From Amycolatopsis australiensis (lineage in GTDB: Bacteria > Actinomycetota > Actinomycetes > Mycobacteriales > Pseudonocardiaceae), in contig NZ_FPJG01000006.1 of assembly GCF_900119165.1 (NCBI RefSeq), positions 5,332,001 through 5,396,000 of the forward strand: a stretch of 64,000 nucleotides of DNA, written 5' to 3'. Positions 10,966 through 42,523 of the stretch are shown in pieces. Position 1 is the stretch's first letter, and the number at the start of each line of letters is the position of its first letter. The translations under genes and the position numbers were made by a program. The notes under the pieces were generated by a model. The model searched no databases. It saw only the letters and a list, made by a program, of their open reading frames with translations, and was not told where the DNA came from.

Positions 10966-10981
10966 GTATAACGCCCTATAC
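10966..10981 (+). repeat. intergenic palindrome, copy 1 (GTATAACGCCCTATAC)
   Basis: One of four copies of a 16-bp element with arms GTATA and TATAC. This copy has one change in the centre (ACGCCC for ACGACC). It lies behind the mpa terminator, between convergent genes, so it is unlikely to be a promoter site for either. Confidence 0.7.
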
Positions 10982-11064
10982 GTCTTGGCTGGATCAACCA
11001 CCGTACCGGTGCCCTGGGTTCCGGCTGCCGGTCGACGGGCTGTTCGGCGCCCGCGCGGTTCGGT

Positions 11065-11952
11065 CTACCCGTCGGCGGGTAGCAGCGCCTCGGCGAGCCG
11101 GCGCCAGTGCGGCATCGCCGCAGTGCCCGGAGCGAGCCCGATCACCTGGATGCCGACGTGGTCGGCACCCGCGTCGAGGTGGCCGCGCAGCTTCTCGGCG
11201 ATCGTGTCCAGGTCGCCCCAGAACACGAGGTCGTCGACCAGGCGGTCGCTGCCGCGGCCGCCGTCGATGTCCGCTTCCGTGTAGCCGAGGCGGCGGAACT
11301 TCGCGACGTTGTACTTCTGTGTGAGGTACGGGTGCAGGTGCTCGCGGGCGATCTCGCGCGCCCTGGCCGGATCCGTCTCGAAGAGCACGGCGTGCTCGAC
11401 GCCGAGGAACGGGCCGTCGCCGAGGATTTCGCGCGCCTGGGCGGTGTGTCCGGGTGTCACGTGGTAGGTGTGCGCGCCCGCCGAGCGGTCCCTGGCCAGT
11501 TCCAGCATCTTCGGGCCGTACGCGGCCAGCAGGCGGCGCATCGGTGCCCTCGGCGCGGGATTGGCGCTCGTGGTGGCGTCCATCGCGTCCAGGTAGCCGT
11601 GCATCGCCTGCAGCGGCTTGGCCCCGGGTTTTCCGGCGCCGAAGCCGAGGCCCAGCAGGTGGCGGTCCGGGTAGGCGTCGGCCAGCAGCACCGCTGCGCC
11701 CCGCGTCCAGCGTGGCTCGCGGGACCAGATCTGCGCGATCCCGTTGACGACGGTGAGGCGCTCGGTGACCGACAGCAGGAACCCGGCATGGGTAAGCGCT
11801 TCCCGGCCGTCGCGCTCGGGGATCCACACCGCCGGCCAGCCCAGTTCTTCCAGTTCCCGGACCGCGTCGCGGATGGCGGCCGCCGGCTGGTCCTCGAAGT
11901 CGAACGTCCAGATCCCGTAGCGGCCCAGCCGCATGCCCTCGATCGTGCTCAT
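11065..11952 (-). CDS. LLM-class F420-dependent oxidoreductase
   Basis: 295-residue TIM-barrel enzyme of the luciferase-like monooxygenase superfamily, subgroup using the deazaflavin F420. Seen: GRYGIWTFDFEDQPAAAIRD at the start, WPAVWIPERDGREALT, LLGLGFGAGKPG and a C-terminal VFWGDLDTIAEKLRGHLDAGADHVGIQ typical of the group. ATG at 11952 was chosen since the family begins with this GRYGIW stretch, although the frame runs 40 codons further. No ribosome site precedes it and a promoter with its -10 right in front suggests a leaderless mRNA. The ArsR-type gene just upstream and an operator-like palindrome suggest local control. The substrate is unknown. Confidence 0.85.
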   Translation of the reverse strand: MSTIEGMRLGRYGIWTFDFEDQPAAAIRDAVRELEELGWPAVWIPERDGREALTHAGFLLSVTERLTVVNGIAQIWSREPRWTRGAAVLLADAYPDRHLLGLGFGAGKPGAKPLQAMHGYLDAMDATTSANPAPRAPMRRLLAAYGPKMLELARDRSAGAHTYHVTPGHTAQAREILGDGPFLGVEHAVLFETDPARAREIAREHLHPYLTQKYNVAKFRRLGYTEADIDGGRGSDRLVDDLVFWGDLDTIAEKLRGHLDAGADHVGIQVIGLAPGTAAMPHWRRLAEALLPADG

Positions 11953-11959
11953 GGATCGA

Positions 11960-11987
11960 AGTATCGCAGATTTACGATATGAGTCAA
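11960..11987 (-). promoter_or_regulatory. promoter of the LLM oxidoreductase overlapped by an 18-bp palindrome (likely ArsR-family operator)
   Basis: On the minus strand TTGACT (11987-11982), 16 bases, then GATACT (11965-11960), which is a good sigma-70-type promoter whose start point falls on the ATG. The imperfect dyad TATCGCAGATTTACGATA (11962-11979) covers the spacer and the -10, so a bound repressor would block RNA polymerase. Confidence 0.6.
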
Positions 11988-12019
11988 CGTGGGCCTGCCG
12001 GGAACGGGGAGGGGAGAGA

Positions 12020-12361
12020 TCAGAGAGAGTGGCCGAGCGCGGCGACGAACTCGGCGATCCGCGCTTCGTCACGCTTGTAGTGCGTCCACTTGCCGACGCG
12101 CGTCGCGCGCACCAGGCCGGCCCGCTGCAGCGCCGCCATGTACGCCGACACCGTCGACTGCGCCAGCCCGAGCTTCGCCTGGATGTGACTCACGCACACC
12201 CCGACCTCGACCGGATCGGCGATGGCCTCCTCGACGGGGAAGTGCCGCTCCGGCTCCCGCAGCCAGCCGAGCACCTGCAGCCGGATCGGGTTCGCGAGCG
12301 CCTTGAACACGTCGAGCAGCTGCTCGACGTCCGGCTGCGGTTCCGCGCGTGTCGTGGTCAT
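12020..12361 (-). CDS. ArsR-family winged-helix repressor
   Basis: 113 residues. LLDVFKALANPIRLQVLGWL is the classical ArsR opening, and VCVSHIQAKLGLAQSTVSAYMAALQRAGLV is the helix-turn-helix with the recognition helix, followed by the wing TRVGKWTHYKRDE. There is no ELCVCDL metal site; a single Cys (VGVCVSH) remains, so it may not sense metals. The ATG at 12361 (MTTTRAEP) was preferred to upstream frames. It sits before the LLM oxidoreductase on the same strand and probably controls it. Confidence 0.88.
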   Translation of the reverse strand: MTTTRAEPQPDVEQLLDVFKALANPIRLQVLGWLREPERHFPVEEAIADPVEVGVCVSHIQAKLGLAQSTVSAYMAALQRAGLVRATRVGKWTHYKRDEARIAEFVAALGHSL

Positions 12362-12419
12362 GGGCCTCACGATCAGCATAGCCGCGACCCGCCACCGGCG
12401 CGTGCTGCCGGACCTTGGC

Positions 12420-12435
12420 GTATAACGACCTATAC
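12420..12435 (+). repeat. intergenic palindrome, copy 2 (GTATAACGACCTATAC)
   Basis: Same 16-bp element, here between the divergent ArsR gene and the small gene at 12445. Its right arm plus the next base reads TATACT (12431-12436), a perfect-looking -10 hexamer eight bases before the GTG start. A protein bound here would therefore sit on the promoter of that gene. Confidence 0.75.
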
Positions 12436-12444
12436 TCACCGGCT

Positions 12445-12780
12445 GTGAGCGAAAAAACCCGGCGCCGCGCGCCCATCACCGAATCGGACGTCCTCGCCTG
12501 GCTGGAGACGACAGCCGCCGCCGTCGAAGCGGGGGAGGTGAGCGCGCAGGAGCTGATCGACCTGCTCGGCGAGTTCCGCCGGGCCTCGGCGGCCTGCGCC
12601 GACGCGTCCGACTGGCTGCTGCTCGCCGCCCGCGAAGGCGGCGCCAGCCTCCGCCAGATCGCGCCGGTCTTCGGCAAGGGCTACGTCCGGGCGCCGGCGG
12701 CGCGCCTGGAGAAGCTGCACCGCCAGGCGCAGAACGCCGACCAGTGGCTGGCCATCCTCCGGCACAAGGCGACGGCATGA
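12445..12780 (+). CDS. small protein with a helix-turn-helix-like segment, function unknown
   Basis: 111 residues, helical throughout. The N-terminal half (ITESDVLAWLETTAAAVEAG, SAQELIDLLGEFRRASA) looks like a helical bundle; the C-terminal half has WLLLAAREGGASLRQIAPVF, KGYVRAPAARLEKLHRQAQ, similar in pattern to a helix-turn-helix (about residues 70-95) of the kind that reads sequence after an ASxxxIA helix. The GTG start is only nine bases from a palindromic repeat and follows a TATACT hexamer, which suggests a leaderless mRNA. The stop overlaps the next ATG (ATGA), so it is coupled to an aldo/keto reductase. I do not recognise the family. Confidence 0.7.
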   Translation: MSEKTRRRAPITESDVLAWLETTAAAVEAGEVSAQELIDLLGEFRRASAACADASDWLLLAAREGGASLRQIAPVFGKGYVRAPAARLEKLHRQAQNADQWLAILRHKATA

Positions 12781-13706
12781 ACCGCGTCGCGCTCGGCCTG
12801 GCCGCGCTGGGCCGCCCCGCGTACATCAACCTCGGCCGGGAGGGCGCGCTACCGCGGACACGGGACGTCGGTTCCATGCGGGCCGCGACTTTCGCCGTGC
12901 TCGACGACGCCTACGCGGCGGGCGTCCGGCACGTCGACGTCGCGCGGTCGTACGGCCGCTCGGAGGAATTCCTGGCGGCGTGGCTGGCCGAGCGCGGGCA
13001 CACCGACGTGGAGGTCTCCAGCAAGTGGGGCTACGCCTACGTCGGCGACTGGCGGCTGGACGCCGAGGTGCACGAGGTGAAGGAGCACTCGGCGGCGCGG
13101 TTCGCGGCGCAGTGGGCGGAAACCCTGGCGCTGCTGGGGGACCGGGTCGGTCTGTACCAGGTGCATTCGCTCACTGTGGACAGTCCCTTGTTCACCGACG
13201 AGCCGCTGGTCGAGGCGCTGGCGGAGCTGTCGGCGAACGGCGTGGCGGTCGGGTTCTCGACGTCGGGGCCGCGGCAGGCGGACGCGATCGAGCGGGCGTT
13301 CGGGCTCGAAGTCGCCGGGCGGCCGGTGTTTTCGGCGGTGCAGTCGACGTGGAACGTGCTGGAGCCGTCCGCGGGACCGGCGCTGACCGCCGCGCACGCG
13401 GCCGGGAACCGGGTGCTGGTCAAGGAAACCCTCGCCAACGGCAGGCTCGCGGTCGAAGCGCCGGCGGCGGTGCGGGAGATCGCCGCGGCGCACGGCACGG
13501 GGCCCGACGCGGTCGCGGTGGCCGCCGTGCTGGCCCAGGAGTGGGCCGACCGGGCGGTCATCGGCCCGGCGAGCCCGGCGCAGCTGGCGGCGAACCTGCG
13601 CGCCACGGCACTGGAACTCACCGCGGCCGAACGGGACGCGCTGGCCGTGCTCGCCGAGGAACCGGGCGAGTACTGGCGACACCGGTCCTCCTTGGCGTGG
13701 GACTGA
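12777..13706 (+). CDS. aldo/keto reductase
   Basis: 309-residue (alpha/beta)8 NAD(P)H-dependent reductase. The catalytic tetrad is visible: Asp in [12 protein letters not shown] together with its Tyr, Lys in [10 protein letters not shown] and His in [11 protein letters not shown]-terminal [22 protein letters not shown] is the usual cofactor-binding region. The ATG overlaps the stop of the upstream small protein by four bases. Substrate unknown. Confidence 0.88.
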
Positions 13707-13759
13707 CGGGCTGCACTACCCTTCGCTGGCACGCCACGGACGACAGGAGGCCGGAGCAG

Positions 13760-14380
13760 GTGCGTCATCGGCAGGCGATCGCGTTGGCCGCGGTCGCGTT
13801 GGTGGGCCTCACGGGCTGCGACGGGCCCGATCCGAACAACCTGGAGACGTACTACGACGATCCGGTGCCCACGTCCTCGGCGGTCCCGCGCGCTTCGGAC
13901 GCTCCGGTGAGTCCCGCGAAGGCGGCTCCGGTCACGCCTCCGCCGGCCGTGCCCGATGCCGGACGGCTCGCGGAGCGGGCGTTGCTGTCCGACGCCGACG
14001 TCGCCGAAGAAGGTGTGCGGCCGGCCTCGAACGAAGTCGCGGGGTGCCTGGCGGACGGGCCGTCGGCGGCCAGCCGGACGGCGACCTGGCGCTATTCCGG
14101 CGGGTCGGTGCTGAGCCACCGCGTCGTGGCGTTCGACGACCGGTCGGCCGCCCACGCCCTCGCGGACGACGAGTGCGCGGGCAAGACGGTGAGCGTCCCG
14201 GTCCAGCCCGGGGTCGAGCTGCAGCGGGCCCGGTGCGACGGCAAGACCTGCACCGTGTTGCTGGCCAAGGGAAGGCTCGTGTCCGAGCTGACGGTCTCGG
14301 CGAGCACCGAGGCCCGCGCGGTGGACGCCGCCAAGCGCCTGCTGCCGGCGATGACGGCGAAGCTCACCGCTCAGCCGTAG
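13760..14380 (+). CDS. lipoprotein of unknown function
   Basis: 206 residues starting at a GTG with AGGAGG ahead. The signal peptide is short and ends in the lipobox LTGC (Cys about 20). A Pro/Ala/Ser-rich spacer (about 25-65) leads to a globular domain with [12 protein letters not shown], three cysteines ([23 protein letters not shown]) and [11 protein letters not shown]. Probably anchored on the outer side of the cell membrane. The last ten bases overlap the convergent Nudix gene. No family recognised. Confidence 0.75.
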
Positions 14381-14889
14381 CGGCGGAACCACTCCTGGAC
14401 GCCTTCGCGGCCGTCGGGGATGAAGGGCAGCTCGGGGGCCGGGTCTTCGACCCAGGCGCGCAGCTCCGCCAAGGGGATCCAGCGGCCTTCGACGATCTCT
14501 TCGGGCTGGTGGCGGATGGGCCCGTCCCAGCGGACCTCGAAGGCGAAGTTGTGACAGCGGTTGCGGCCGTCGTCGTAGACCTTGGTGAACAGCGGCACGG
14601 GTTCCACCCCCTGGACGCCGAGCTCCTCGGCCAGCTCGCGGCGGGCGCACTCGGCCGGGGTCTCGCCGGCCGCGACCACGCCGCCGGCCCAGCAGTCCCA
14701 CGTCGACGGGAACACGTCCTTCACCGCGGTGCGGAGGTGCACGTAGACGGCCTTTCCGTCACCCGAACGGACCAGGACGACGCCGGCGGCGTGCCACAGG
14801 CCCTCGGCGCGGACGCGGGCGCGGGTGGCCGTGCCGACGACCGAGCCGGCCTGGTCATAGCGGGCAACGAGTTCGTCACTGCCTGGCAT
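14371..14889 (-). CDS. Nudix hydrolase
   Basis: 172 residues. The Nudix box [20 protein letters not shown] followed by LGV fits G-x5-E-x7-REUxEExGU without a missing residue. The surrounding sequence ([38 protein letters not shown]) resembles the YfcD/IPP-isomerase-like Nudix branch. It likely hydrolyses a nucleoside or prenyl diphosphate; the substrate is not determined. It is divergent from dop, 42 bp apart. Confidence 0.88.
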
Positions 14890-14918
14890 GGGTGCATCGT
14901 TCCACCAGTGCGACCCCG

Positions 14919-14931
14919 TAGGGTGGTGGAC
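14919..14931 (+). promoter_or_regulatory. -10 hexamer for a leaderless dop transcript
   Basis: TAGGGT (14919-14924) followed by seven bases and the ATG at 14932. In-frame GTG codons at 14923 and 14926 are possible alternatives, but the homologous protein starts at the ATG. Confidence 0.45.
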
Positions 14932-16434
14932 ATGCGGCGGATCATGGGAACCGAAGTCGAGTACGGCATCTCCGTGCCGGGCGACGCGACGGCGAACCCG
15001 GTACTCACCTCCACCCAGGTCGTCCTCGCCTACGCGGCGGCGGCCGACATCCCGCGCGCCCGGCGGGCGCGGTGGGACTACGAGGTGGAGTCCCCGCTGC
15101 GCGACGCGCGCGGGTTCGACCTCACCGGGCCCGGCGGGCCTGGCCACGACCCGGACGTCGAGGACCTGGGCGCGGCGAACGTCATCCTGACCAACGGGGC
15201 GCGGCTGTACGTCGACCACGCGCACCCGGAGTACTCGGCGCCCGAGGTGACCAACGCCCGGGACGCGGTCATCTGGGACAAGGCGGGCGAGCGGGTGATG
15301 GAGGAGGCGGCGATGAAGGCCGCGTCCGTGCCGGGCCAGCCGCAGCTGCAGCTGTACAAGAACAACGTGGACGGCAAGGGCGCCAGCTACGGCACGCACG
15401 AGAACTACCTGATGGCGCGGTCGACGCCGTTCACCGCGGTGATCGCGGGGCTGACGCCGTTCTTCGTCTCGCGCCAGGTCGTGACCGGCTCCGGCCGGGT
15501 CGGGATCGGGCCGCAGAGCGAGGAAGCCGGGTTCCAGCTCTCCCAGCGTGCGGACTACATCGAGGTCGAGGTCGGCCTGGAGACGACGCTGAAGCGCGGG
15601 ATCATCAACACCCGCGACGAGCCGCACGCGGACGCGGACAAGTACCGTCGGCTGCACGTCATCATCGGCGACGCGAACATGTCGGAGTACTCGACGTACC
15701 TCAAGGTCGGGACGACCGCGCTGGTGCTGGACCTGATCGAGGCGGGCATCCGCTTCGACGACCTGAAGCTGGACGAGCCGGTCAAGGCCGTGCACCAGAT
15801 CAGCCACGACCCGACGCTGAAGACGCAGGTCGCGCTGGCCAACGGCAAGAAGTACACCGGGCTGGACCTGCAGTTCGCCTACCACGAGATCGCTTCGCAG
15901 AACCTGGAGCGCACGGGTGCGGACCAGGCGTCGAAGGAGGTGCTGCGGGTCTGGGGCGAGATCCTGGACGCGCTGGCGCGCGATCCGCAGGAGTGCGCGG
16001 ACCGGCTGGACTGGCCGGCGAAGCTGCGGCTGCTCGAGGGCTACCGGCAGCGGGACAACCTCGCGTGGGGCGCGCCGCGGCTGCGGCTGGTCGACCTGCA
16101 GTACTCGGACGTGCGGCTGGCGAAGGGCCTGTACAACCGGCTGGTGACGCGCGGGTCGATGAAGCGGCTGGTGTCGGAGGAGGAAGTGCTGGCCGCGGTG
16201 ACGACGCCGCCGTCGGACACGCGGGCCTACTTCCGGGGCCGGGCGCTGGAGAAGTACGCGACGTCGATCGCGGCGGCGTCCTGGGATTCGGTCATCTTCG
16301 ACGTGGGCAAGGAGTCGCTGGTGCGGATCCCGACCCTGGAGCCGCTGCGCGGGACGAAGGCGCACGTCGGCAAGCTGCTGGACGAGGCCGCGACGGCGGA
16401 GGAGCTGGTGGAGGCGCTCACCGGTTCGGACTAG
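14932..16434 (+). CDS. dop: depupylase/deamidase of Pup, Dop
   Basis: Carboxylate-amine ligase-fold enzyme that cleaves Pup from its targets and, where needed, deamidates Pup-Gln. It opens with [14 protein letters not shown] (the Glu binds Mg-ATP), carries the Dop-specific loop region around [11 protein letters not shown], and shows [20 protein letters not shown] and [20 protein letters not shown]. 500 residues, as in mycobacteria. It is first in the dop-pup-prcB-prcA operon. Because Pup here ends in Glu, only the depupylase activity seems needed. Confidence 0.97.
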
Positions 16435-16485
16435 GCGGGACGCACCACCGATCGCGGCGTTGCCCCGAATGTCGGGGCCGCTGGG

Positions 16486-16491
16486 TAGGCT
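16486..16491 (+). promoter_or_regulatory. possible extra promoter (-10 TAGGCT) in front of pup
   Basis: TAGGCT lies 29 bp before the pup ATG, with GGGAGGCGAG as ribosome site after it. No clear -35 is seen. It would let pup-prcBA be made independently of dop. Confidence 0.35.
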
Positions 16492-16520
16492 AGGAAACAT
16501 CAGCCACACCGGGAGGCGAG

Positions 16521-16715
16521 ATGGCCCAGGAAAAGATCGAAAAGCACGGCGGCGGCGACTCCGACGAGGAGTTCGACGACACCGGCGCGGCGGGTCAGGA
16601 GCGGCGCGAGAAGCTCGGCGAGGACGTGGACACGATCCTCGACGAGATCGACGACGTGCTCGAGGAGAACGCCGAGGACTTCGTCCGGGCCTACGTGCAG
16701 AAGGGCGGCGAGTAA
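16521..16715 (+). CDS. pup: prokaryotic ubiquitin-like protein Pup
   Basis: 64-residue, mostly disordered acidic tag. The N-terminal part MAQEKIEKHGGGDSDEEFDD engages Mpa; the helix-forming segment REKLGEDVDTILDEIDDVLE binds the Mpa coiled coil; the C-terminal end is KGGE. The last residue is Glu, so the protein is made in its ligation-ready form and does not need deamidation, unlike mycobacterial GGQ forms. It has a strong ribosome site and follows dop by 86 bp. Confidence 0.97.
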   Translation: MAQEKIEKHGGGDSDEEFDDTGAAGQERREKLGEDVDTILDEIDDVLEENAEDFVRAYVQKGGE

Positions 16716-16847
16716 GCCGCTGGGGGCGCTGCGCCCTTGCCGACCGTTCAGCCGGCGGCCGGGGGTCCGCGCGGCGGTGGCCTGAGGGGCCGCCGGGCGC
16801 GGGGCCGCGGCCGTTCTGGCCCGCACAGATGGGATTTTTGAGCACGT

Positions 16848-17702
16848 ATGGACAACACCAGGGGCATCTCGGGTCCCGCGCTGCCCGCGGCGTACTTTTC
16901 GTCGGCGACGTCGTCGTTTTCGGACTTCCTGCGTGAGCAGGCGCCGGAGCTGCTGCCGCACCGGCGGGTGGCGCCGGGCGCGGCGGAGCTGGGCGTGCCG
17001 CACGGCACCACGATCGTCGCGTGCACGTTCGCGGGCGGCGTGCTGATCGCGGGTGACCGGCGGGCGACGTCGGGCAACCTGATCGCGAGCCGCGACATCG
17101 AGAAGGTGCACGTCACCGACGAGTACTCGGCGGTGGGCATCGCGGGCACGGCGGGGCTGGCCGTGGAGATGGTGCGGCTGTACGCGGTGGAGCTGGCGCA
17201 CTACGAGAAGATCGAGGGCGTTTCGCTGTCGCTGGACGGCAAGACGAACAAGCTGGCCGGGATGGTCAAGGCCAACCTCGAGATGGCGATGGCGGGGCTG
17301 GCGGCGATTCCGCTGTTCGTGGGGTACGACCTGGAGGCCGAGGACGCCAAGCACGCGGGGCGGATCGTGTCGTACGACGCCGCGGGCGGCCGGTACGAGG
17401 AGCACGGCGGCTACGCGTCGATCGGTTCGGGTTCGCTGTTCGCGAAATCCGCGCTCAAGAAGCTGCACGACCCGGACGCCGACGCCGAGGGCGCCGTGCG
17501 GGTCGCGGTGGAGGCGCTGTACGACGCGGCGGACGACGACACCGCGTCGGGCGGGCCGGACCTGGTGCGCCGGATCTTCCCGAGCGTCGTGACGGTCACC
17601 GCGGAGCAGGGTGCGGTGCAGCTGCCGGAGTCGGAGACGGCCGCGGTGGCCGAGGCCGTCGTGCAGGGGCGCATCGAGCGCCACCAGCGCCGGCTCTCCT
17701 GA
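16848..17702 (+). CDS. prcB: 20S proteasome beta subunit PrcB
   Basis: Catalytic subunit, 284 residues. A propeptide of about 53 residues with [15 protein letters not shown] ends at PHG; the mature N-terminal nucleophile is Thr54 in TTIVACTF. Lys in [11 protein letters not shown] region and the [13 protein letters not shown] segment are conserved. Ends [10 protein letters not shown]. The ATG at 16848 lacks a clear ribosome site; the 132 bp behind pup are GC-rich and may fold. It forms the inner rings of the 20S core together with PrcA. Confidence 0.96.
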
Positions 17703-17754
17703 CCGGAGCTGAACCAGTGAACGTTGGAACACCGGAAGACCTGGAGCGCACACC

Positions 17755-18555
17755 GTGACGATGCCGTTGTATGCCTCTCCCGAGCAGCTGATGCGGGAGC
17801 GTTCCGAGCTGGCGCGCAAGGGCATCGCGCGCGGCCGGAGCGTGGTGGTGCTGAAGTACGCGGGCGGCGTGCTGTTCGTGGCGGAGAACCCGTCGGCGAC
17901 GTTGCACAAGGTGTCCGAGATCTACGACCGGATCGGGTTCGCCGCGGTCGGGCGCTACAGCGAGTTCGAGAACCTGCGCGTGGCGGGTATCCGGCACGCG
18001 GACCTGAAGGGCTACCAGTACGACCGGCGTGACGTGAGCGCGCGGGCGCTGGCGAACGCGTACGCGGCGACGCTGGGCAGCATCTTCACCGAGCAGCTGA
18101 AGCCGTTCGAGGTGGAGATCTGCGTGGCGGAGGTGGGGACGACCGCGGCGGAGGACCAGCTGTACCGGCTGACCTACGACGGGTCGATCTTCGACGAGCC
18201 GCAGTACGTGGTGATGGGCGGCCAGACGGACAAGATCTCGGCGAAGCTGAAGGAGACGTTCGAGGACGGCCTGGAGCTGCAGGCGGCGCTGAGCGTGGCG
18301 GTGAAGGCCCTGCGGGCCCCGAGCCAGCCGCAGGCTTCGTCGTCGGCGTCTTCGTCGGGCTCTGCGTCTTCGTCGTCGAACGCGGCGGCGAACGGCAACG
18401 GCGACGGCGACCCGATCAAGCTGGAGGTGGCGGTCCTCGACCGCGACCGCCCGCGGCGTTCGTTCCGGCGCCTCACCGGCGCGGCCCTGGACTCGCTGCT
18501 GCCGGTGCCGGACCCGAAGGTCGACGAGCCGGAGGCCAAGCCCGAAGGCGAGTGA
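17755..18555 (+). CDS. prcA: 20S proteasome alpha subunit PrcA
   Basis: Outer-ring subunit, 266 residues. It begins with [20 protein letters not shown], the gating N-terminus, and shows [20 protein letters not shown] and [19 protein letters not shown]. Between the folded part and the terminal [18 protein letters not shown] block there is a Ser/Ala/Asn/Gly linker (about residues 180-210), longer than in M. tuberculosis. Starts at GTG, 52 bp behind prcB. Its pockets receive the C-terminal Tyr-Leu of Mpa. Confidence 0.95.
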
Positions 18556-18567
18556 GCCCCGCGTCCG

Positions 18568-19345
18568 TCATCCCGGCCGGTAGGCGACGGCCAGCAGGTG
18601 GGCGGAAGCGTCGATGAGCCGCGGGTCCCGCTCGACGAGCCGGGCGGCGCGCAGGGCCGATCGAGCACGGTCCGGGAACGCGCCGGTCCCGGCGGCGTCG
18701 AGCGCGGGCCACGCGGGGCCTTCGACCCCGAACACCTCGGGGCCCGGGAAGCCTGCCGCGGCGACTTCCTCGCGCAGCTCGGTGGCCGTGTGCCAGTGCG
18801 TGGGCACGAAACCGATGTGGCCGTCGTACGCGCCGGTCTCGATGACCTGCCCCACCGGTCCGGCGACGTCGGCGGTCAGCGTGCCGGCCGCGCCCGTCTC
18901 CAGCAGCGAGAGGTAACGGCTGATGCCCGCGGCGGCGAGCAGCCCACCCGGACGCAGCACCCGCCGGGCTTCGGCCAGTGCGCGAGCGCGGTCTGCAACG
19001 TCGACGAGGTGGTAGAGCGGGCCGAGCAGCAGGACCGCGTCGGCGGACGAGTCCGCCGCGGCCAACGCGCGGGCGTCCCCGGCGGAGGCCGTGACGCCGG
19101 GCAGCGTCGCGGCCCGGGCGGCGTGGGCGGGGACGAGGTCGATCAGGTGGACCGAGTGGCCGTCGGCGGCGAGCCAGGCCGCGTGCACCCCCCGTGCCGC
19201 CTCCGACGTCCAGCACACGGGCGCGGGCAGGCAGGAAGCGCCGAAGCAGCTCCTGGGTGCGCAGGAACTCGAGCCTGCCGTGCGGGCTCCGGGCGAGCCG
19301 GGTGTCCTCGACGGGCCCGGTGGCGTAGTGGGTCGCGAGGTCCAT
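18568..19345 (-). pseudogene. SAM-dependent methyltransferase interrupted by a one-base frameshift
   Basis: Two overlapping frames together make a class I methyltransferase of about 258 residues. The first (from ATG 19345) reads MDLATHYATGPVEDTRLARS to ARVLDVGGGTG, the SAM motif I. The second continues as VHAAWLAADGHSVHLIDLVP through ARRVLRPGGLLAAAGISRYL to LIDASAHLLAVAYRPG. They join at a run of six C (19188-19193; six G on the coding strand); five would restore the frame. It may be a real pseudogene, slippage-controlled, or a sequencing error. Substrate unknown. It is inserted between prcA and pafA relative to mycobacteria. Confidence 0.8.
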
Positions 19346-19377
19346 GCCTCACTGTCCCGGATGCCGCAACCGGATTT

Positions 19378-20598: not shown

Positions 20599-20701
20599 TG
20601 ACTCCCCGCTCGTCGCCTGGCCGCGGGCAGGGTCGCCCGCATCTCGGTTGCGAAGCTAGCCAGAAGTGGCTGTGGGTTCGTTGAGAGTGGGTAAAGAAAC
20701 C

Positions 20702-23685: not shown

Positions 23686-23693
23686 CCGGCCCG

Positions 23694-25586: not shown

Positions 25587-25592
25587 CGGCTC

Positions 25593-32278: not shown

Positions 32279-32294
32279 GTATAACGACCTATAC
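32279..32294 (+). repeat. intergenic palindrome, copy 3 (GTATAACGACCTATAC)
   Basis: Third copy, in front of helY (57 bp before its GTG). The flanks CC and GG extend the inverted arms to seven bases, giving a 20-bp dyad CCGTATA...TATACGG. Confidence 0.75.
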
Positions 32295-35129: not shown

Positions 35130-35289
35130 ACTCCGTGTTAGCCCTGCTCGGCCGCGGCGGAAGCGGTGAGCGTGGACACGTGTGCTCGGCTCCGACCTGT
35201 GGTTGGATTTCGTGCGACACCGTGCGTACGCGGCTTGACGGCGCTTTCGGGGTGGACAGCGACATGAGCGAAGCAGGCGGAGGCAGACG

Positions 35290-36045
35290 ATGAGCACGCC
35301 GTATGGCGGCAACGACCCACAGCAGCCCCAGTACGGGCAGCAGCCGGGCGGCGCGTACCCGCCGAGCGGCCCGCAGGAACAACCCCAGTGGGGCCAGCAG
35401 CCGCCTGCGTACGACCCCAGCCAGCAGCAGTGGGGTCAGCCGCAGCAGCCCCAGCAGTGGGGTCAGCAGCCGGGCGGGTACACGCCGCCGCAGCAGCCGC
35501 AGTGGGGTCAGCAGCCGCCGCCCTACGGCCAGCAGCCCGGGGGTGGCTACCCGCAGAGCGGCCCGCAGGCGCAGCCCCAGTACGGCCAGCAGCCCGGCGG
35601 CGGCTACCCGCAGAGCGGCCCGCAGGCGCAGCCCCAGTACGGCCAGCAGCCGCCGGGCCAGTACGACTACGGCCAGCAGCAGTTCCCCGGCCAGTCTTCC
35701 CCGGAGGGGGAGAAGCCGGCGAAGTCGAAGAAGGGCCTGCTGATCGGCATCATCGCGCTGGTCGTGGTGGTCGCGGTCGTCGGCATCCTCGGCTTCGTCA
35801 CGCCCGGGTTCTTCAAGACGCAGGTGTTCAACAACACCCAGATGCAGGCCGACGTGCAGAAGCTGCTCACCGACACCTACAAGATCGAGGGCGTCACCGG
35901 CGTGACCTGCCCGGCCGACCAGAAGGTCGAGGACGGCGCGAAGTTCGAGTGCACCGCGACCATCGCCGGCAAGCCGCAGCAGGTGCCGATCACGGTGAAG
36001 GGCGACGGCGGCAACTACGAGGTCTCCCCGCCCGTCGGCAAGTAG
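35290..36045 (+). CDS. Gln/Pro/Gly-rich membrane protein with DUF4333 domain
   Basis: 251 residues with a ribosome site GGAGG before the ATG. Residues 1-145 are low-complexity Gln/Pro/Gly/Tyr repeats, including two almost identical 19-residue units. A KSKKG anchor and one membrane helix (LLIGIIALVVVVAVVGILGF) follow. The extracellular C-terminal DUF4333 carries the Cys pair of VTCPADQKVEDG and KFECTATI and ends YEVSPPVGK. Same place as Rv2091c of M. tuberculosis. Function unknown; exported by Sec as a type II membrane protein. Confidence 0.85.
   Translation: MSTPYGGNDPQQPQYGQQPGGAYPPSGPQEQPQWGQQPPAYDPSQQQWGQPQQPQQWGQQPGGYTPPQQPQWGQQPPPYGQQPGGGYPQSGPQAQPQYGQQPGGGYPQSGPQAQPQYGQQPPGQYDYGQQQFPGQSSPEGEKPAKSKKGLLIGIIALVVVVAVVGILGFVTPGFFKTQVFNNTQMQADVQKLLTDTYKIEGVTGVTCPADQKVEDGAKFECTATIAGKPQQVPITVKGDGGNYEVSPPVGK
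35530..35643 (+). repeat. two 57-bp tandem repeats inside the DUF4333 protein gene
   Basis: Copies at 35530-35586 and 35587-35643 differ at two or three bases; a partial third begins at 35644. Each codes for [19 protein letters not shown]. Unit length is a multiple of three, so copy changes would keep the frame. Confidence 0.8.
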
Positions 36046-36119
36046 CGCCGGGCACGCGGGTCCGGCCGTCGCGGAATTGCGGTGGCCGGACCCGCTCGTC
36101 TACGGCCATGATCCGGGTC

Positions 36120-37322
36120 ATGAGCGACTTCGAGATCCGGACCCTGCGTACCGACGAGCACCGCGCGGCGAGCGACCTGTTCCGGGGCAGCCTGCACGTG
36201 CCGCCGAGCGACGACGCCGACTGGGAACGCGCGGCCCGCGCCTACCAGCCGGGCGGGACGATCGGCGCGTTCGACCCGGACCTCATCGGCACCGCGCGCT
36301 CGTTCGACGCCGAGCTGACCGTCCCCGGCGGCGCGCGGCTGCCGATGGCCGGGGTCACCGGCGTCGGTGTCCGGGCCGACCGGACGCGCCGCGGCGTGCT
36401 GCGCGCGCTGATGACCACGCAGCTCGAGGACTTCGCGGCCCGCGGCGTCGTGTTCGCGAACCTGCTGGCCTCCGAGGCCGTGATCTACGGCCGGTTCGGC
36501 TACGGCCTGGCCGCGCGGAACCGCACCTACGGTGTCGACCGGCATCGCGCGCGGCTGCGCCCGGACCTGCCGTCGAGCGGCCGGGTCGAGCTGCTGGACG
36601 TCGACGCCGCGGTCGCCGAGCTGCCCGGGGTCTACGAGCGCATCCCGCACCGGCCCGGCATGATGACCCGGCCCGAAGTGGTGTGGCGGCAGTACGAGAA
36701 CCACCTCCGCCGCAGCACCGACCCCGTCCGGGCCGTCGTGCACCACGGCCCGGACGGGCCGGACGGCTTCGCGACCTACGTCGTTTCCGGCCTGCACCAG
36801 CACCCGTGGACCAAGACGCTCGACGTGGGCGACATGTTCGCCGCCACCCCGGCCGCCTTCGCCGGGCTGTGGCGGTTCCTGCTCGGCGTCGACCTCGTGG
36901 ACCGGGTCGTCGCCGGGGCGCGGGCCATGGACGAGCCGATCGAGCTGCTGCTCGCCGACCACCGGCAGAGCGCCGTCGACCGGATCGGTGACGACCACTG
37001 GGTCCGGATCGTCGACGTGCCGCGGGCGCTCGCCGCGCGCGCCTACGGTCCCGGTGAGCCGGTCGTCGTCGAGGTCACCGATCCGGTGCTGCCGGGCAAC
37101 GCCGGCCGGTACCGCGTCACCGCGGGCGGTGCCGAACGCACCGACGCACCCGCCGCGCTGACTCTTGACGCCGCCACGCTCGCGATGGCCTACTTCGGCA
37201 CGTGGCGGCCCTCGGCGCTCGCGGCGGCCGGCCGGATCGTCGTCCGCGACGCGGCCGCCGCCGAGGCCGCCGACACGCTGTTCGCCACGCGGCAGCCGGC
37301 GTGGAGCGGGACGTACTTCTGA
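36120..37322 (+). CDS. Eis-like GNAT N-acetyltransferase, first of a tandem pair
   Basis: 400 residues. Eis-family layout: N-terminal GNAT domain with GVTGVGVRADRTRRGVLRAL as acetyl-CoA loop and EAVIYGRFGYGLAARN, a second GNAT-like domain (about 170-290, FRFLLGVDLV-type segment near 270), and a C-terminal SCP2-like domain ending in Phe, whose carboxylate takes part in catalysis in mycobacterial Eis. Eis acetylates aminoglycosides and lysines. The ATG at 36120 was chosen since the conserved part begins MSDFEIRTL. Its natural substrate is not known. Confidence 0.88.
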   Translation: MSDFEIRTLRTDEHRAASDLFRGSLHVPPSDDADWERAARAYQPGGTIGAFDPDLIGTARSFDAELTVPGGARLPMAGVTGVGVRADRTRRGVLRALMTTQLEDFAARGVVFANLLASEAVIYGRFGYGLAARNRTYGVDRHRARLRPDLPSSGRVELLDVDAAVAELPGVYERIPHRPGMMTRPEVVWRQYENHLRRSTDPVRAVVHHGPDGPDGFATYVVSGLHQHPWTKTLDVGDMFAATPAAFAGLWRFLLGVDLVDRVVAGARAMDEPIELLLADHRQSAVDRIGDDHWVRIVDVPRALAARAYGPGEPVVVEVTDPVLPGNAGRYRVTAGGAERTDAPAALTLDAATLAMAYFGTWRPSALAAAGRIVVRDAAAAEAADTLFATRQPAWSGTYF

Positions 37323-37374
37323 CGACCGGAAAATCCGGATGCCCCGGCCGGGGCAGGGCGGCAGGATCGGCGGC

Positions 37375-38592
37375 ATGACCGACTTCGACGTCCGCCCCGT
37401 GACCGACGACGAGCGCCGCAGCACGTTCGACCTGCTCGGCCGTTCGCTGCACGCCCAGCCCGTCAGCGACCAGGCCTGGTCGCGCTTCGGGAGCTCGTGG
37501 CCCGCGGCGCACAAGTTCGGCGCGTTCGACGGCGGCACCCCGATCGGGATCGCCAGCTCCTTCGACACGCGGATCGCCGTGCCCGGCGGCGGGACCGTGA
37601 CGCTCGGCGCGGTCGACGGTGTCGGCGTCCGGGCCGACCGGACGCGGCGCGGAGTGCTCACCGCGATGATGGCGGCACAGCTGGAAGACTTCGCCGCCCG
37701 CGGCATCCCGCTGGCTGCCCTGCACGCCAGCGAGCCGACGATCTACGGCCGGTTCGGCTACGGCTCGGCCGCGCTGGGCAAGACGCTGCGCGTGGCACGG
37801 CCCGCCGCCCGGCTCGACGAGCGCGTCGCGGCCGGCGGGGACGTCCGGATGCTCACGCCCGAGGAGGCCGTGGAAGCGGTTCCCGCGCTGTACGAGCGGA
37901 TCGGGCTGCACCGCGCCGGGATGATCGGCCGGCCGGCCGCGTGGTGGCCGAACATGCACGACCGGCACGCCGGTCCGCACGGCCGCCACATCACCGCCGT
38001 CCACAGTGGACCGGACGGGGACGACGGCTTCGTCGTCTACGACACGGTCGAGCGCCGGTCCTTCGACGCACCCGACGAGGGAGCGGTGCTCGACGTCCGT
38101 GACCTGCACGCCGCCGACCCGGTCGCGCGGGCCGCGCTGTGGCGGTTCCTGTTGTCGGTGGACCTGGTCTCCGGCGTGCGGGCCCGGCACCGCCCGGTCG
38201 ACGAGCCGCTGGCGCTGCTGCTGACCGACCACCGGCACGCGCGCACCTGCGAGGTCGAAGACGATCTGTGGTTGCGTCCGGTCGACGTCGCCGCCGCGCT
38301 GCGGGCCCGCACCTACCGCGCGGCCGACCCGGTGGTGCTGGCGGTGCGTGACCGGATGCTGCCGGCCAACACCGGGCACTACGAGGTCGGCCCCGGCGGT
38401 GCCCGCCGCACGGACGCGGCCGCGCATCTCGCCCTCGACGTCGACACGCTCGGGATGCTCTACCTCGGCCAGTGGAGCGCGACCGCGCTGGCCCAGGCCG
38501 GCCGGATCGAGGTCCACGACCCGGCCGCCCCGGACCGCGCGGACGAGCTGTTCACCACGGTCACCGCGCCGTGGTGCGGCACGCACTTCTAG
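37375..38592 (+). CDS. Eis-like GNAT N-acetyltransferase, second of a tandem pair
   Basis: 405 residues and clearly a paralogue of the preceding gene: MTDFDVRPVTDDERRSTF, DGVGVRADRTRRGVLTAMM, EPTIYGRFGYGSAALGKT, RFLLSVDLVSGV, and the terminal WCGTHF with the C-terminal Phe. The copies have diverged widely outside these motifs, which suggests an old duplication and different substrates. The last four bases overlap the convergent exonuclease gene. Confidence 0.88.
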   Translation: MTDFDVRPVTDDERRSTFDLLGRSLHAQPVSDQAWSRFGSSWPAAHKFGAFDGGTPIGIASSFDTRIAVPGGGTVTLGAVDGVGVRADRTRRGVLTAMMAAQLEDFAARGIPLAALHASEPTIYGRFGYGSAALGKTLRVARPAARLDERVAAGGDVRMLTPEEAVEAVPALYERIGLHRAGMIGRPAAWWPNMHDRHAGPHGRHITAVHSGPDGDDGFVVYDTVERRSFDAPDEGAVLDVRDLHAADPVARAALWRFLLSVDLVSGVRARHRPVDEPLALLLTDHRHARTCEVEDDLWLRPVDVAAALRARTYRAADPVVLAVRDRMLPANTGHYEVGPGGARRTDAAAHLALDVDTLGMLYLGQWSATALAQAGRIEVHDPAAPDRADELFTTVTAPWCGTHF

Positions 38593-39536
38593 GCGCCGGG
38601 CAGGGCCTTCAGCAGCCGCTCGACGGAGTTGCCGAGGTTCCACCGCTCGGCCAGCTCGGCCACACGTGCGGGGTCGGCGGGCGCCGTGGGCACGGTGTCG
38701 GGGCGGGACTGCTCGACGGGCGCGTCGACGGCGACCCGGACCACGGTCGGCGCGACGGCCAGGTAGCCGGCGGCCTCCGAAAGCCGCAGCCGCGTCTTGA
38801 GCGGGACGCGGGAGTCGCTGGCCGCGGACGCCGCCAGCAGCGCCTCGAGCGACCCGAACTGGGTGATCAGCTTGGCGGCGGTCTTCTCGCCGATCCCGGC
38901 GACGCCGGGCAGCCCGTCGGAGGGGTCGCCGCGCAGGGCCGCCATGTCCGCGTAGGCGGGACCGGCGGTTTCGCGGGGGAGCCCGTAGCGCTCGGCGATC
39001 TCGGCCGGGCCGAGCACCTCCGCCTTGGCCCAGCCCTTCCCGACGTAGACGACGGAGGCGGGCGTCGGCTCACTGCGCACCAGCTGGAACAGGTCGCGGT
39101 CGCCGGTGATCACCTCGACCGGATCGGTCTTCTCGCGGGTGGCCAGCGCGCCGATGACGTCGTCGGCCTCGTAGCCCGCCGCCTCCGCGGTGGCGAACCC
39201 GAACGCGGCCAGCAGGTCGAGGATGATCGGCACCTGCGGGGTGAGCGTGTCGGGCACCTCTTCGACGTCGGGGCTGCCACCGCCGGTCTCCTCGGCCACC
39301 CGGTGCGCCTTGTAGCTGGGCAGCAGGTCGGTGCGGAACTTCGGCCGCCAGTCGGCGTCGAGGCAGCAGACCAGGCGTGCGGGCCGCCGGTCGGTGAGGA
39401 TCCGCGCGATCGTGTCGGCGAACCCCCGCACGGCGTTGACCTGCGTCCCGTCGGCGGCGCGCATCGAGTCGGGCAGGGCGAAGAACGAGCGGAAGTACAG
39501 GCTCGCGGAGTCGAGCAGGGCAAGTGGTCCGGTCAC
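38589..39536 (-). CDS. 5'-3' exonuclease of the FEN/PolA-N type
   Basis: 315 residues from a GTG. Starts with LALLDSASLYFRSFFALP (first Asp), shows DADWRPKFRTDLLPSYKAHR, GYEADDVIGALA and VITGDRDLFQLV for the acidic metal-binding cluster, and DGLPGVAGIGEKTAAKLI as the helix-3-turn DNA grip. Stand-alone version of the PolI 5' nuclease domain, acting on flaps or RNA primers. Same place as Rv2090. Its start region borders a minisatellite. Confidence 0.93.
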   Translation of the reverse strand: MTGPLALLDSASLYFRSFFALPDSMRAADGTQVNAVRGFADTIARILTDRRPARLVCCLDADWRPKFRTDLLPSYKAHRVAEETGGGSPDVEEVPDTLTPQVPIILDLLAAFGFATAEAAGYEADDVIGALATREKTDPVEVITGDRDLFQLVRSEPTPASVVYVGKGWAKAEVLGPAEIAERYGLPRETAGPAYADMAALRGDPSDGLPGVAGIGEKTAAKLITQFGSLEALLAASAASDSRVPLKTRLRLSEAAGYLAVAPTVVRVAVDAPVEQSRPDTVPTAPADPARVAELAERWNLGNSVERLLKALPGA

Positions 39537-39880
39537 CCGCACAGCCTGCCACGCCGGGCTGCCGGTGCGGGGCAAGCCACGCACCCTCGGGCACGCCGGG
39601 AGAGGGGCGGGCGCGCTGCCGGAACCGGCGGGGAGTGTGGCCGGGGGCCTCGTGGGTGGCGGCCCGGCCGTGGTCGGGTCGGCAGCCGCGGGCCGGTGAG
39701 TGGCAGCCGGCCCTGCCGGTCAGGCGGCACCGGAGACGGCCGGGTGGCGGCCGGCCGTGGCCGGTCGGGTAGTGGGGGAGGTGGCGGGGCGGTCCCGAGG
39801 TGTGGCTGCCCGCCCTGGCCGGTCGCGCGGCGGGGGAGTGGCCGGGTGAGCCCGGGCGGCTGCCCGGCGCTGGCCGGGCA

Positions 39881-40216
39881 GCGCGGGAGATGGCCGGGCG
39901 GCGCCGGTGGGTGGCGGCCGGCCGGGCAGCGCGGGAGATGGCCGGGCGGCGCCGGTGGGTGGCGGCCGGCCGGGCAGCGCGGGAGATGGCCGGGCGGCGC
40001 CGGTGGGTGGCGGCCGGCCGGGCAGCGCGGGAGATGGCCGGGCGGCGCCGGTGGGTGGCGGCCGGCCGGGCAGCGCGGGAGATGGCCGGGCGGCGCCGGT
40101 GGGTGGCGGCCGGCCGGGCAGCGCGGGAGATGGCCGGGCGGCGCCGGTGGGTGGCGGCCGGCCGGGCAGCGCGGGAGATGGCCGGGCGGCGCCGGTGGGT
40201 GGCGGCCGGCCGGGCA
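39881..40216. repeat. 48-bp minisatellite, seven exact copies plus a partial one
   Basis: Unit starts GCGCGGGAGATGGCCGGGCG and repeats every 48 bp from 39881; the seven full copies look identical by eye and an eighth begins at 40217 before diverging. No spacers, so not CRISPR. Since 48 is a multiple of three and the unit has no A/T-rich stops, several frames stay open on both strands, for example MAGRRRWVAAGRAARE on the plus strand, but none looks like a protein. Confidence 0.9.
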
Positions 40217-40340
40217 GCGCGGGAGATGGCCGGATGGTCCCGGGCCGGCCGGCCAGGGAGAACCCACGGTGGCAGGGGAGTGCGTCACCCGGCCCGGCAT
40301 GTCGTGGGCCCGGGCGAGCCGGTCACCGTGGGGCGCGGAC

Positions 40341-40353
40341 TAGGCTCGGCCTC
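40341..40353 (+). promoter_or_regulatory. -10 hexamer for a leaderless pepE transcript
   Basis: TAGGCT (40341-40346), seven bases, ATG at 40354. It fixes the start codon despite the long open frame coming from the minisatellite. Confidence 0.55.
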
Positions 40354-41496
40354 ATGTCGCGCCGTTCCCTCCACACGCCCGCCCCCGACGCCGCCGCTCT
40401 TCGTGCTCGCCTCGACCGGGCCCGCTCCGCCGCGGCCGCCGCGGACACCGATGCCCTGCTCATCGCGCCCGGCTCCGACCTGCGGTACCTGCTCGGCCAG
40501 GCCGGTGGCTCGTTCGAGCGGCTCACCACCCTCGTCGTCCCGGCCGACGGTGTGCCGGCGCTGGTCGTGCCCAAGCTGGAGGCGCCCGGCTACGCCGACG
40601 TCCCCACCGGCGACCTCGGCATCGAGCTGCTCACCTGGGTGGACGGCGAAGACCCCTACAAGCTCGTCGCGGACCGGCTCGGCAAGCCCGGCCGCGTCGC
40701 GGTCAGCGACTTCACCCCGGCCCTGCACGTGCTGGCCCTGCGTGCCGCGCTCGGTGACGCCGAGCAGACCCTCGCCGGCCCGGTCGTGCGGGAGCTGCGG
40801 ATGCGCAAGGACGCCGCGGAGATCGCGTCGCTGCGCGAGGCCGGTGCGGCCATCGACCGGGTGCACGCCCGGGTCCACGAGTGGCTGCGCCCCGGGCGCA
40901 CCGAGGCCGAGGTCGGCGCCGACATCGCCGCGGCCATCGTCGAGGAGGGCCACGAGCGGGCCGACTTCGTGATCGTCGGCTCGGGCCCGAACGGCGCCAG
41001 CCCGCACCACGACGTCTCCGGCCGCGTCATCGAGAAGGGTGACGTCGTGGTCGTCGACATCGGTGGTCCGCTGCCGGCCGGCTACAACTCCGACTCCACC
41101 CGCACCTACGCGGTCGGCACCCCGCGCGACGCCGACGTGGCCGAGACGTACGCGGTCCTGCAGCGCGCCCAGGCCGCCGCCGTGGCCGCGGTCAAGCCGG
41201 GCGTCACGGCCGAGCAGGTGGACGCCGCCGCGCGGGACGTCATCGCCGAGGCCGGGTACGGCGAGTACTTCATCCACCGCACCGGCCACGGCATCGGCCT
41301 GGACGTGCACGAGGAGCCGTACATCATCGCCGGGAACGCATTGCCGCTGGAGCCGGGCATGGCCTTCAGCGTGGAGCCGGGCATCTACCAGCCGGGCCGG
41401 TGGGGCGCCCGGATCGAGGACATCGTCGTCGTCACCGAAGACGGGGTCGAGTCCGTCAACAACCAGCCGCACGAGCTCGTCGTGCTGGACGCATGA
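40354..41496 (+). CDS. pepE: Xaa-Pro dipeptidase/aminopeptidase P-family metallopeptidase
   Basis: 380 residues, creatinase N-domain followed by a pita-bread M24 domain. Metal ligands: Asp in VVVVDIGGPLPAGYNSDSTR (two Asp), His in FIHRTGHGIGLDVHEEP, Glu in FSVEPGIY and ARIEDIVVVTED. Probably removes N-terminal residues before proline in the cytoplasm. Same place as Rv2089c (pepE). The stop overlaps the next ATG (ATGA). Confidence 0.93.
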   Translation: MSRRSLHTPAPDAAALRARLDRARSAAAAADTDALLIAPGSDLRYLLGQAGGSFERLTTLVVPADGVPALVVPKLEAPGYADVPTGDLGIELLTWVDGEDPYKLVADRLGKPGRVAVSDFTPALHVLALRAALGDAEQTLAGPVVRELRMRKDAAEIASLREAGAAIDRVHARVHEWLRPGRTEAEVGADIAAAIVEEGHERADFVIVGSGPNGASPHHDVSGRVIEKGDVVVVDIGGPLPAGYNSDSTRTYAVGTPRDADVAETYAVLQRAQAAAVAAVKPGVTAEQVDAAARDVIAEAGYGEYFIHRTGHGIGLDVHEEPYIIAGNALPLEPGMAFSVEPGIYQPGRWGARIEDIVVVTEDGVESVNNQPHELVVLDA

Positions 41497-41948
41497 CGGC
41501 CGGTGGCCTGGAGCCGCTCGACCAGGCGATCGTCCAGGAGCTGGCGGCCGACGGGCGGCGCAGCTTCACCGACCTCGCCGAGCGCGTCGGGCTGTCGGTG
41601 TCGGCGGTGCACCAGCGGGTGCGCCGCCTCGAGCAACGCGGGGTCATCCTCGGCTACACCGCGCGGCTCGACGGCGAGCAGATCGGCCTGCCGCTGACGG
41701 CACTGATCTCGCTGACGCCGAACGACCCGGCCGCGCCGGACGACTACCCGCAGCGGATCCAGCACATCAAGGAGATCGAGTCCTGCTACTCGGTGGCCGG
41801 CGACGAGTCCTACATCCTGCTGGTGCGCGTCGCCTCGCCGCTGGCCCTGGAGGACCTGCTGCGCCGGATCCGGGAGGCCGCGAAGGTGTCGACGAGGACC
41901 ACAGTGGTGCTCTCTACGCCGTTTGAGGGACGTTCACCGACGTTCTGA
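41493..41948 (+). CDS. Lrp/AsnC-family regulator
   Basis: 151 residues. Helix-turn-helix LDQAIVQELAADGRRSFTDL then VGLSVSAVHQRVRRLEQRGV, and a C-terminal RAM domain (GLPLTALISL, SCYSVAGDESYILLVRV) that binds amino acids. Coupled to the dipeptidase by a four-base overlap, so it may sense products of peptide breakdown and control the pair. Confidence 0.92.
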   Translation: MTAGGLEPLDQAIVQELAADGRRSFTDLAERVGLSVSAVHQRVRRLEQRGVILGYTARLDGEQIGLPLTALISLTPNDPAAPDDYPQRIQHIKEIESCYSVAGDESYILLVRVASPLALEDLLRRIREAAKVSTRTTVVLSTPFEGRSPTF

Positions 41949-41981
41949 CGCCGGCCCGCCGCCCGGCGGCCGGGGCGCTGG

Positions 41982-41994
41982 TACGGTAAAAGGT
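41982..41994 (+). promoter_or_regulatory. -10 hexamer for the toxin-antitoxin operon
   Basis: TACGGT (41982-41987), seven bases, ATG at 41995. A likely leaderless transcript; AGGT before the ATG is a weak ribosome site at best. Confidence 0.5.
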
Positions 41995-42219
41995 ATGGCA
42001 ACACGTAAGGTGACTCTTTCGCTGGACAGCGGCGCCCTGGAATTCGCCGAGCGCGCCGCGAAAGCACACGGGATCTCGGTCTCGTCCTGGCTGTCGAAGG
42101 CGGCCCGGCGCGAGGCGGTGCGCACCGGCTACACCCCGCAGAAGCCGGACCCGGCCGCCGCGGAATCGGACGAGGCCGAGCGCAGCGCGGCGGAAAAGGA
42201 TCTGCGTGCGCAGGGGTGA
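41995..42219 (+). CDS. antitoxin-like protein with ribbon-helix-helix-type N-terminus
   Basis: 74 residues. RKVTLSLDSGALEFAERAAKAHGISVSSWLSKAARREA has the strand-helix-helix pattern of RHH DNA-binding antitoxins; the C-terminal part (PDPAAAESDEAERSAAEKDL) is charged and probably disordered until it wraps the toxin. The toxin gene overlaps its 3' end by 14 bp. It would repress its own operon. Confidence 0.75.
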   Translation: MATRKVTLSLDSGALEFAERAAKAHGISVSSWLSKAARREAVRTGYTPQKPDPAAAESDEAERSAAEKDLRAQG

Positions 42220-42505
42220 AGTCTGGACGTACCACCCCCCGACCGAACCGGCCCGGCAGCGCACGGTCGTCCTGCTGTCCTCGGACGGGGTGAACGAGTC
42301 CGAGCGGCCCTGGCTGCTCGGTACCGAACTGCTCGACCGCGACCCGATGGACATCCTCGGCGTGGCGATCGACGCCCGCTACTGGGTGTCGACGCTCAAC
42401 CTGACCCGGCTCTACCGCCCCTGGTTCGACGAGCGCGTAGCGGAAATCGACCAGGACGTCCAGGAGCGCATCGACATCGCGCTCCGGGCGGCCCTCGACC
42501 TCTGA
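42206..42505 (+). CDS. MazF/PemK-like toxin (putative endoribonuclease)
   Basis: 99 residues from a GTG inside the antitoxin gene. MRRGEVWTYHPP and RQRTVVLLSSDGVNESERPW resemble the RRGEIW and RPVLIVS opening of PemK/MazF; the middle (ILGVAIDARYWVSTLNLTRL) matches strand pairs of that fold. Catalytic residues cannot be assigned with certainty, so the toxin role rests on fold pattern, size and the operon. Directly behind its stop codon is palindrome copy 4. Confidence 0.65.
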   Translation: MRRGEVWTYHPPTEPARQRTVVLLSSDGVNESERPWLLGTELLDRDPMDILGVAIDARYWVSTLNLTRLYRPWFDERVAEIDQDVQERIDIALRAALDL

Positions 42506-42507
42506 CT

Positions 42508-42523
42508 GTATAACGACCTATAC
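42508..42523 (+). repeat. intergenic palindrome, copy 4 (GTATAACGACCTATAC)
   Basis: Fourth copy, two bases after the toxin stop codon and before the convergent SGNH gene end. The flanks CT and AG extend it to CTGTATAACGACCTATACAG. The flank change relative to copy 3 keeps pairing. Confidence 0.75.

Follow-up and report, generated by a model that had tools for sequence, protein, structure and literature searches.

Dif-facing copies of a 16-bp sequence and a linked helix-turn-helix-like gene suggest a polar replication fork trap in Amycolatopsis and related genera

The stretch of DNA analyzed here (the window) covers 64,000 nucleotides of the 9.31-Mb genome of Amycolatopsis australiensis (C6:5332001-5396000). 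It carries four copies of a 16-bp imperfect palindrome, GTATAACGNCCTATAC, one of which immediately precedes the gene of a 111-amino-acid (111-aa) helix-turn-helix (HTH)-like protein. As a preliminary description of the window had reported, all four copies have the + strand orientation, and copy 1 carries a single change at its center; copies 2 and 3 are found upstream of genes, and copies 1 and 4 between convergent gene ends. The sites and associated features are given below, with flanking bases numbered from the first base of the 16-mer.

10966..10981, + strand: site copy 1 (GTATAACGCCCTATAC), with T at -1 and GGC at +22 to +24; the flanking genes, one for a proteasomal-type AAA ATPase and one luciferase-like, converge on it
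12420..12435, + strand: site copy 2, which precedes the small HTH-like gene and ends 9 bp before its GTG, with GGC at +22 to +24
12431..12436, + strand: TATACT, a possible -10 promoter element suggested by the sequence, made of the end of copy 2 and the next T
12445..12780, + strand: coding sequence, stop codon included, of the all-helical, HTH-like 111-aa protein that is the proposed binder of the site
32279..32294, + strand: site copy 3, upstream of a HelY-like (DEAD/DSHCT) helicase gene, without GGC at +22 to +24
42508..42523, + strand: site copy 4, between convergent gene ends; the innermost exact + strand site, 47 kb from the dif-like site

Allowing up to three mismatches, a search of the window with GTATAACGNCCTATAC returned these four matches only, all on the + strand, where 0.01 would be expected from 100 shuffles, and the gapped pattern GTATA-N6-TATAC recovered the same four. 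The preliminary description had named a chance-level count in the genome, copies inside genes and a lack of conservation at equivalent places as results that would speak against it, and none of these came about. The genome holds 11 exact copies, far above chance, all on the 9.1-Mb contig, and none of the reversed pattern used as a control. The + strand has seven, spread from 4.158 to 5.375 Mb, and the - strand four, from 5.489 to 6.958 Mb. With dnaA at 1.00 Mb, the sole dif-like site, recognized by what we take to be the dif consensus, is at 5.4215 Mb, within the strand switch of the copies. At one mismatch, three further chromosomal copies obey the same polarity rule and one more is found on a small contig. 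At three mismatches the pattern gave 32 matches and the reversed control 22, and matches at that level are thus mostly noise. The two small contigs of this genome (73 and 106 kb) carry near-copies with one to three mismatches (G000:C1:29168 and 29695; G000:C2:29493, 63740 and 68405; loci L012, L020 and L016-L018). These may function as terminators or operators on plasmids; a close copy of the 111-aa protein was not found next to any of them.

The origin and terminus could be positioned through dnaA and dif in all 28 genomes considered (this one and 27 others), and polarity was tallied in the 25 of them, from four genera, that had complete site lists (G008, G126 and G158 were excluded). The tally leaves out the one-mismatch copy at G000:C1:29168, which is off the chromosome, uses rounded lengths for G077, G026, G206 and G097 and, for G013, where two dif candidates have two mismatches each, relies on the candidate opposite dnaA. 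Read from dnaA to dif, 211 of 214 exact copies and 93 of 94 one-mismatch copies point toward dif (304/308 overall); since the tallied genomes are related, these sites are not independent. Each genome has 5 to 11 exact copies (median 9), and 138 of the 211 correctly pointing ones fall within the dif-proximal tenth of their arm, while none of the 214 occurs in the origin-proximal 40%. In 25/25 genomes dif lies between the innermost opposed sites, including on chromosomes with unequal arms, and the inner exact sites that bracket it are 86 to 449 kb apart (median 180 kb). The spacing of the cluster also recurs: the next sites stand 19.9 and 30.1 kb from the gene-linked one here, and, computed by hand, at 19.7/29.3 kb in G061, 19.9/29.6 kb in G079, 19.1/29.1 kb in G030 and 18.1/29.5 kb in G071.

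Dif-ward polarity is likewise a property of the FtsK-orienting polar sequences (KOPS; PMC2680272, on KOPS-guided FtsK). Rather than the replisome, the sites could guide or block, in one direction, a translocase of DNA or a machine for segregation (FtsK/SpoIIIE-like or SMC), with the protein marking the terminus for segregation, and the clustering around dif would fit this as well. However, KOPS are 8 bp long, are read by FtsK itself and are far more numerous than the exact copies counted on each chromosome, and a dedicated, presumably autoregulated binder encoded beside a site is the tus/rtp pattern. We therefore consider a translocase guide unlikely.

Comparison of 142 non-redundant sites showed that core positions 1-6, 11-13 and 16 are invariant. 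Position 9 is free (A 54, C 19, T 18 and G 10%), so that copy 1, whose central change is real, is an ordinary member of the family rather than an aberrant one. Because the two halves differ at the invariant positions 6 and 11, the core itself is polar. Conservation extends past the 16-mer on both sides, with a pyrimidine at -1 (C or T in 142/142 sites, and in 34/35 of a later set, with one A) and a one-sided tail rich in G and C that covers roughly +17 to +24. This tail was found in three sets that partly share homologous sites: 54 non-redundant sites unlinked to the gene (+19 C 78%, +23 G 67%, +24 C 65%), 35 further stretches (+22 G 83%, +23 G 80%, +24 C 74%; taken from 36 non-exception stretches, of which L270 starts at the site and gave no row) and 99 sites (+22 G 77%, +23 G 74%, +24 C 79%). 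The whole element would then span about 24-25 bp, as Y-GTATAACGNCCTATAC followed by the tail, or roughly GGCNNGGC. GGC at +22 to +24 is present in 42/60 sites within 300 kb of dif compared with 12/39 beyond (p 0.0002), both the 300-kb split and the trinucleotide having been picked after inspection of the data.

The preliminary description had also taken the flanks of copies 3 and 4, different in sequence and still complementary, as support for a dyad-based function. This does not extend beyond those two copies: complementarity between -1 and +17 is seen at 34 of the 142 sites, where 34.3 would be expected, and the next four pairs show no clear excess (48 against 39.5, 45 against 48.5, 29 against 32.7 and 41 against 38.3 expected). 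The dyad-like arms and the concentration of copies in the terminus half would suit a non-polar terminus organizer of the MatP/matS kind, with the polarity as a side effect. Such an organizer appears very unlikely given that 304 of 308 copies share one polarity, that the dyad-breaking positions 6 and 11 never vary and that the tail is one-sided.

Placement relative to genes was assessed for 40 copies on gene calls made by a codon-usage script rather than on annotation. Thirty copies are intergenic, although intergenic sequence makes up only 15.8% of the surroundings; eight more merely touch a gene end, overlapping the predicted gene by exactly 6 bases, where GTATAA or GTATAG would supply the stop codon, and two lie inside predicted genes. 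The neighboring genes are convergent for 17 copies (11 intergenic, 6 touching a gene), co-directional for 16 and divergent for 7. An artefact of gene direction was considered as the cause of the orientation and rejected, all four neighbor arrangements being represented. These figures bear as well on an ordinary regulon, in which the copies would serve a transcription regulator as operators and owe their arrangement to coincidence. Some copies do stand upstream of genes, and the promoter region of the would-be regulator always has a site, but the 17 copies between convergent genes, with only 7 between divergent ones, and the strand switch at dif in all 25 tallied genomes argue against this reading, which we consider very unlikely, slightly more so than the terminus organizer. 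In the window, the gene adjoining copy 1 (8808-10907) encodes a proteasomal ATPase of the Mpa/ARC type, placing proteasome genes near the replication terminus in this genome.

The 111-aa gene and the site were found to be tightly linked. The gene is present in 60/60 genomes of the genus, with one match each, and a close homologue (E 9e-35 or better) occurs in 37/150 genomes of the family; with up to one mismatch, the motif is found in exactly those 37 and in 0/113 of the others. The exact motif occurs in 36/36 genomes of the genus (this one included) and in 0/24 genomes of the order that belong to other families. Upstream of the gene, and in its orientation, a site was present at 57/57 loci, often with a second site just downstream, and in 102/102 distinct gene copies, 94 of them with the site 8-10 bp before the first in-frame start. 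Named carriers among 71 loci are Amycolatopsis, Prauserella, Saccharomonospora and Qaidamihabitans, with one actinomycete bin in addition, and the closest matches, at 94% identity, are from Amycolatopsis. A profile search across 397 genomes of the order matched 33, all within the family and in 7/85 genera; as it scored 11 candidates per genome, weak relatives may have been missed. In one genome (G078:C49:190329-190649) the gene match contains a single internal TAG, unlike those of the other 59 genomes of the genus.

The base following the core is T in 75/102 gene-upstream sites and in 0/54 non-redundant unlinked sites. Being confined to the sites before the gene, this T suggests that the gene-linked site may double as a -10 element through TATACT. 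A mobile or selfish short repeat would account for one short word in many copies, but there is no conserved flank past the tail, the word is tied exactly to one gene across genera and its copies follow the polarity rule, which makes this origin extremely improbable. Of the three options put forward at the outset, a chromosome-organizing site pointed in the right direction, because the copies change strand at dif, and a regulator operator was right in part, because the promoter region ahead of the 111-aa gene always contains one copy. Neither operators alone nor a repeat without function would explain the polarity.

The predicted structure of the 111-aa protein is all-helical (mean predicted local distance difference test score, pLDDT, of 92), with helices at residues 13-28, 34-64, 69-76, 82-94 and 98-110. 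Its C-terminal half is HTH-like, and the last pair of HTH-like helices in the model falls within an invariant part of the sequence. No relative of known function emerged from the sequence or fold searches. Residues ~50-105 weakly resemble a LuxR/NarL-type HTH, a sigma factor and DnaA domain IV in Foldseek and VIA-align comparisons, a resemblance consistent with a DNA-binding role only. Sequence searches of Pfam, NCBIfam, PHROGs and PDB gave weak, scattered matches, none passing a family cut-off; aspartate-semialdehyde dehydrogenase (E 0.005) and FliX (E 0.0035) headed them, well short of what NCBIfam requires. When 62 members were compared with Pfam-A at E <=1, neither Tus (PF05472) nor RTP (PF02334) was among the 12 families matched. 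RTP and Tus folds were also not among the fold matches listed by Foldseek and VIA-align, which excludes nothing. The names carried by 120 of the 136 proteins found are hypothetical, uncharacterized and, in a few cases, DUF222, a label for which Pfam gives no backing here.

The layout just described has its main features in common with the tus and rtp fork traps, while the protein and the site are unrelated to theirs, and we thus propose a fork trap. In our judgment, the 16-mer is probably the core of a polar terminator site bound by the 111-aa HTH-like protein. The 5 to 11 exact copies on the two arms around dif each read 5' to 3' toward dif. Forks from the origin would reach a site at its 5' face and go through. 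Once beyond dif, a fork would instead encounter the 3' face, with its GC-rich tail, and be held there until the other fork arrives, the tail side being the presumed blocking face. The binder would limit its own synthesis through the one site that overlaps its promoter. The sequences themselves show the motif, its copy number, polarity and intergenic placement, the centering on dif, the linkage to the gene and the exact co-occurrence of gene and site; binding of the protein to the site, repression of its own gene, arrest at the bound site and the choice of blocking face are inferred.

Several observations weigh against this proposal. Four copies, at loci L254-L257, point the wrong way, and a strong, universal block at these places would stop the incoming fork: two exact copies ~2.0 Mb from dif in G064 (C1:3432220 and 3478353), and one exact and one one-mismatch copy 1.1-1.2 Mb from dif in G077 (C1:634462 and 784273). 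They may be marks of inversions or inactive sites; GGC at +22 to +24 occurs in 0/4 of them and in 54/99 others (p 0.048, a post hoc comparison). The very unequal arms of G031 (3.0/6.8 Mb) and G077 (2.4/7.3 Mb) are awkward for a tight trap. The GC skew switches near dif, with mixed skew on the left arm, and lends weak support, and the tail score showed no significant relation to distance from dif (Spearman -0.13, p 0.19). Foldseek and VIA-align returned no match covering the whole protein and no close structural match. By dnaA and dif position, the arms of G019 are also unequal (3.7/5.3 Mb).

Two weak homologues of the protein elsewhere in the family offer a hint of its origin. Those of G204 (E 1.4e-9, L191) and G088 (E 1.7e-8, L192) come without the motif and have other palindromes upstream, that of G088 occurring at one place in its genome at <=3 mismatches. 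The G088 homologue adjoins open reading frames that were read by eye as a conjugation-type peptidoglycan hydrolase and a tyrosine recombinase, and it seems, from these sequences, to sit in an integrative element. Its mobile-type neighbors and unique palindrome fit descent from a mobile-element regulator and provide a lead, and only that, to an ancestor that would have been the self-repressing regulator of a mobile element. For tus, a plasmid origin is proposed in a passage of PMC6549158, which parallels the ancestry suggested here.

In its account of described traps, PMC6549158 knows two unrelated ones only, Tus/Ter and RTP/Ter, in four clades, and why traps are kept is unsettled according to the pertinent part of PMC10331603. 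In the open literature, with subscription papers and preprints outside the search, we found no description of fork traps or Ter sites in the genera studied here. With less assurance than for the terminator site itself, we lean toward regarding this system as a fork trap that evolved independently of the other two, the third in bacteria and the first in Actinobacteria, in which an autoregulated terminator, HTH-like and 111 aa long, would be the protein of the Amycolatopsis/Prauserella/Saccharomonospora group, domesticated from mobile-element self-repressors, with ~24-bp polar sites whose dif-facing GC tail blocks. If true, a third unrelated trap in large-genome antibiotic producers would mean that one layout has evolved repeatedly by convergence, down to a site ~10 bp before the start codon of the binder. 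Because the protein is tiny, the site short and the organisms harmless, polar arrest of forks could be put to a direct test, together with how it works and what it is for; the unequal arms and the wrong-way copies provide natural variants already available, with the chromosomes of G031, G077 and G019 as natural test cases.

Among known systems, KOPS/FtsK shares polarity toward dif. Here, few long sites with a putative binder gene of their own stand in place of many 8-bp sites read by FtsK, and the copies, so few and so absent from the origin-proximal part of the arms, are not a frequent 8-bp motif along whole arms. MatP/matS shares terminus-restricted sites and a dedicated binder, a putative one in the present system; matS is palindromic and non-polar, whereas the present sites are polar and asymmetric. 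In Escherichia coli and Bacillus subtilis, ter sites are oriented toward dif and arrest the forks that arrive from its side (PMC6549158). According to PMC10331603, tus and rtp are autoregulated through a ter site located in their promoter, and the innermost ter sites have dif between them; PMC8707476 places TerB 11 bp upstream of tus. With Tus/Ter of E. coli and its relatives, the present system has in common about ten polar, dif-ward sites on both arms with dif between the innermost, a gene of the binder (putative here) beside a promoter-region site ~10 bp from its start, and a single small set of sites per chromosome. It differs in phylum, in its HTH-like protein, which has no Tus-model match among 62 members, and in its site, where an imperfect dyad followed on one side by a GC tail takes the place of the Ter sequence. 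RTP, of ~110-120 aa, offers a further parallel in size. Like RTP/Ter of B. subtilis, the system combines a small helical HTH-type protein with imperfect dyad sites of terminus-ward polarity, and the autoregulation reported for rtp (PMC10331603) is proposed here as well. Unlike RTP/Ter, it has one 16-bp dyad with a GC tail instead of paired A/B half-sites, and a protein with neither an RTP-model match nor a close fold match found.

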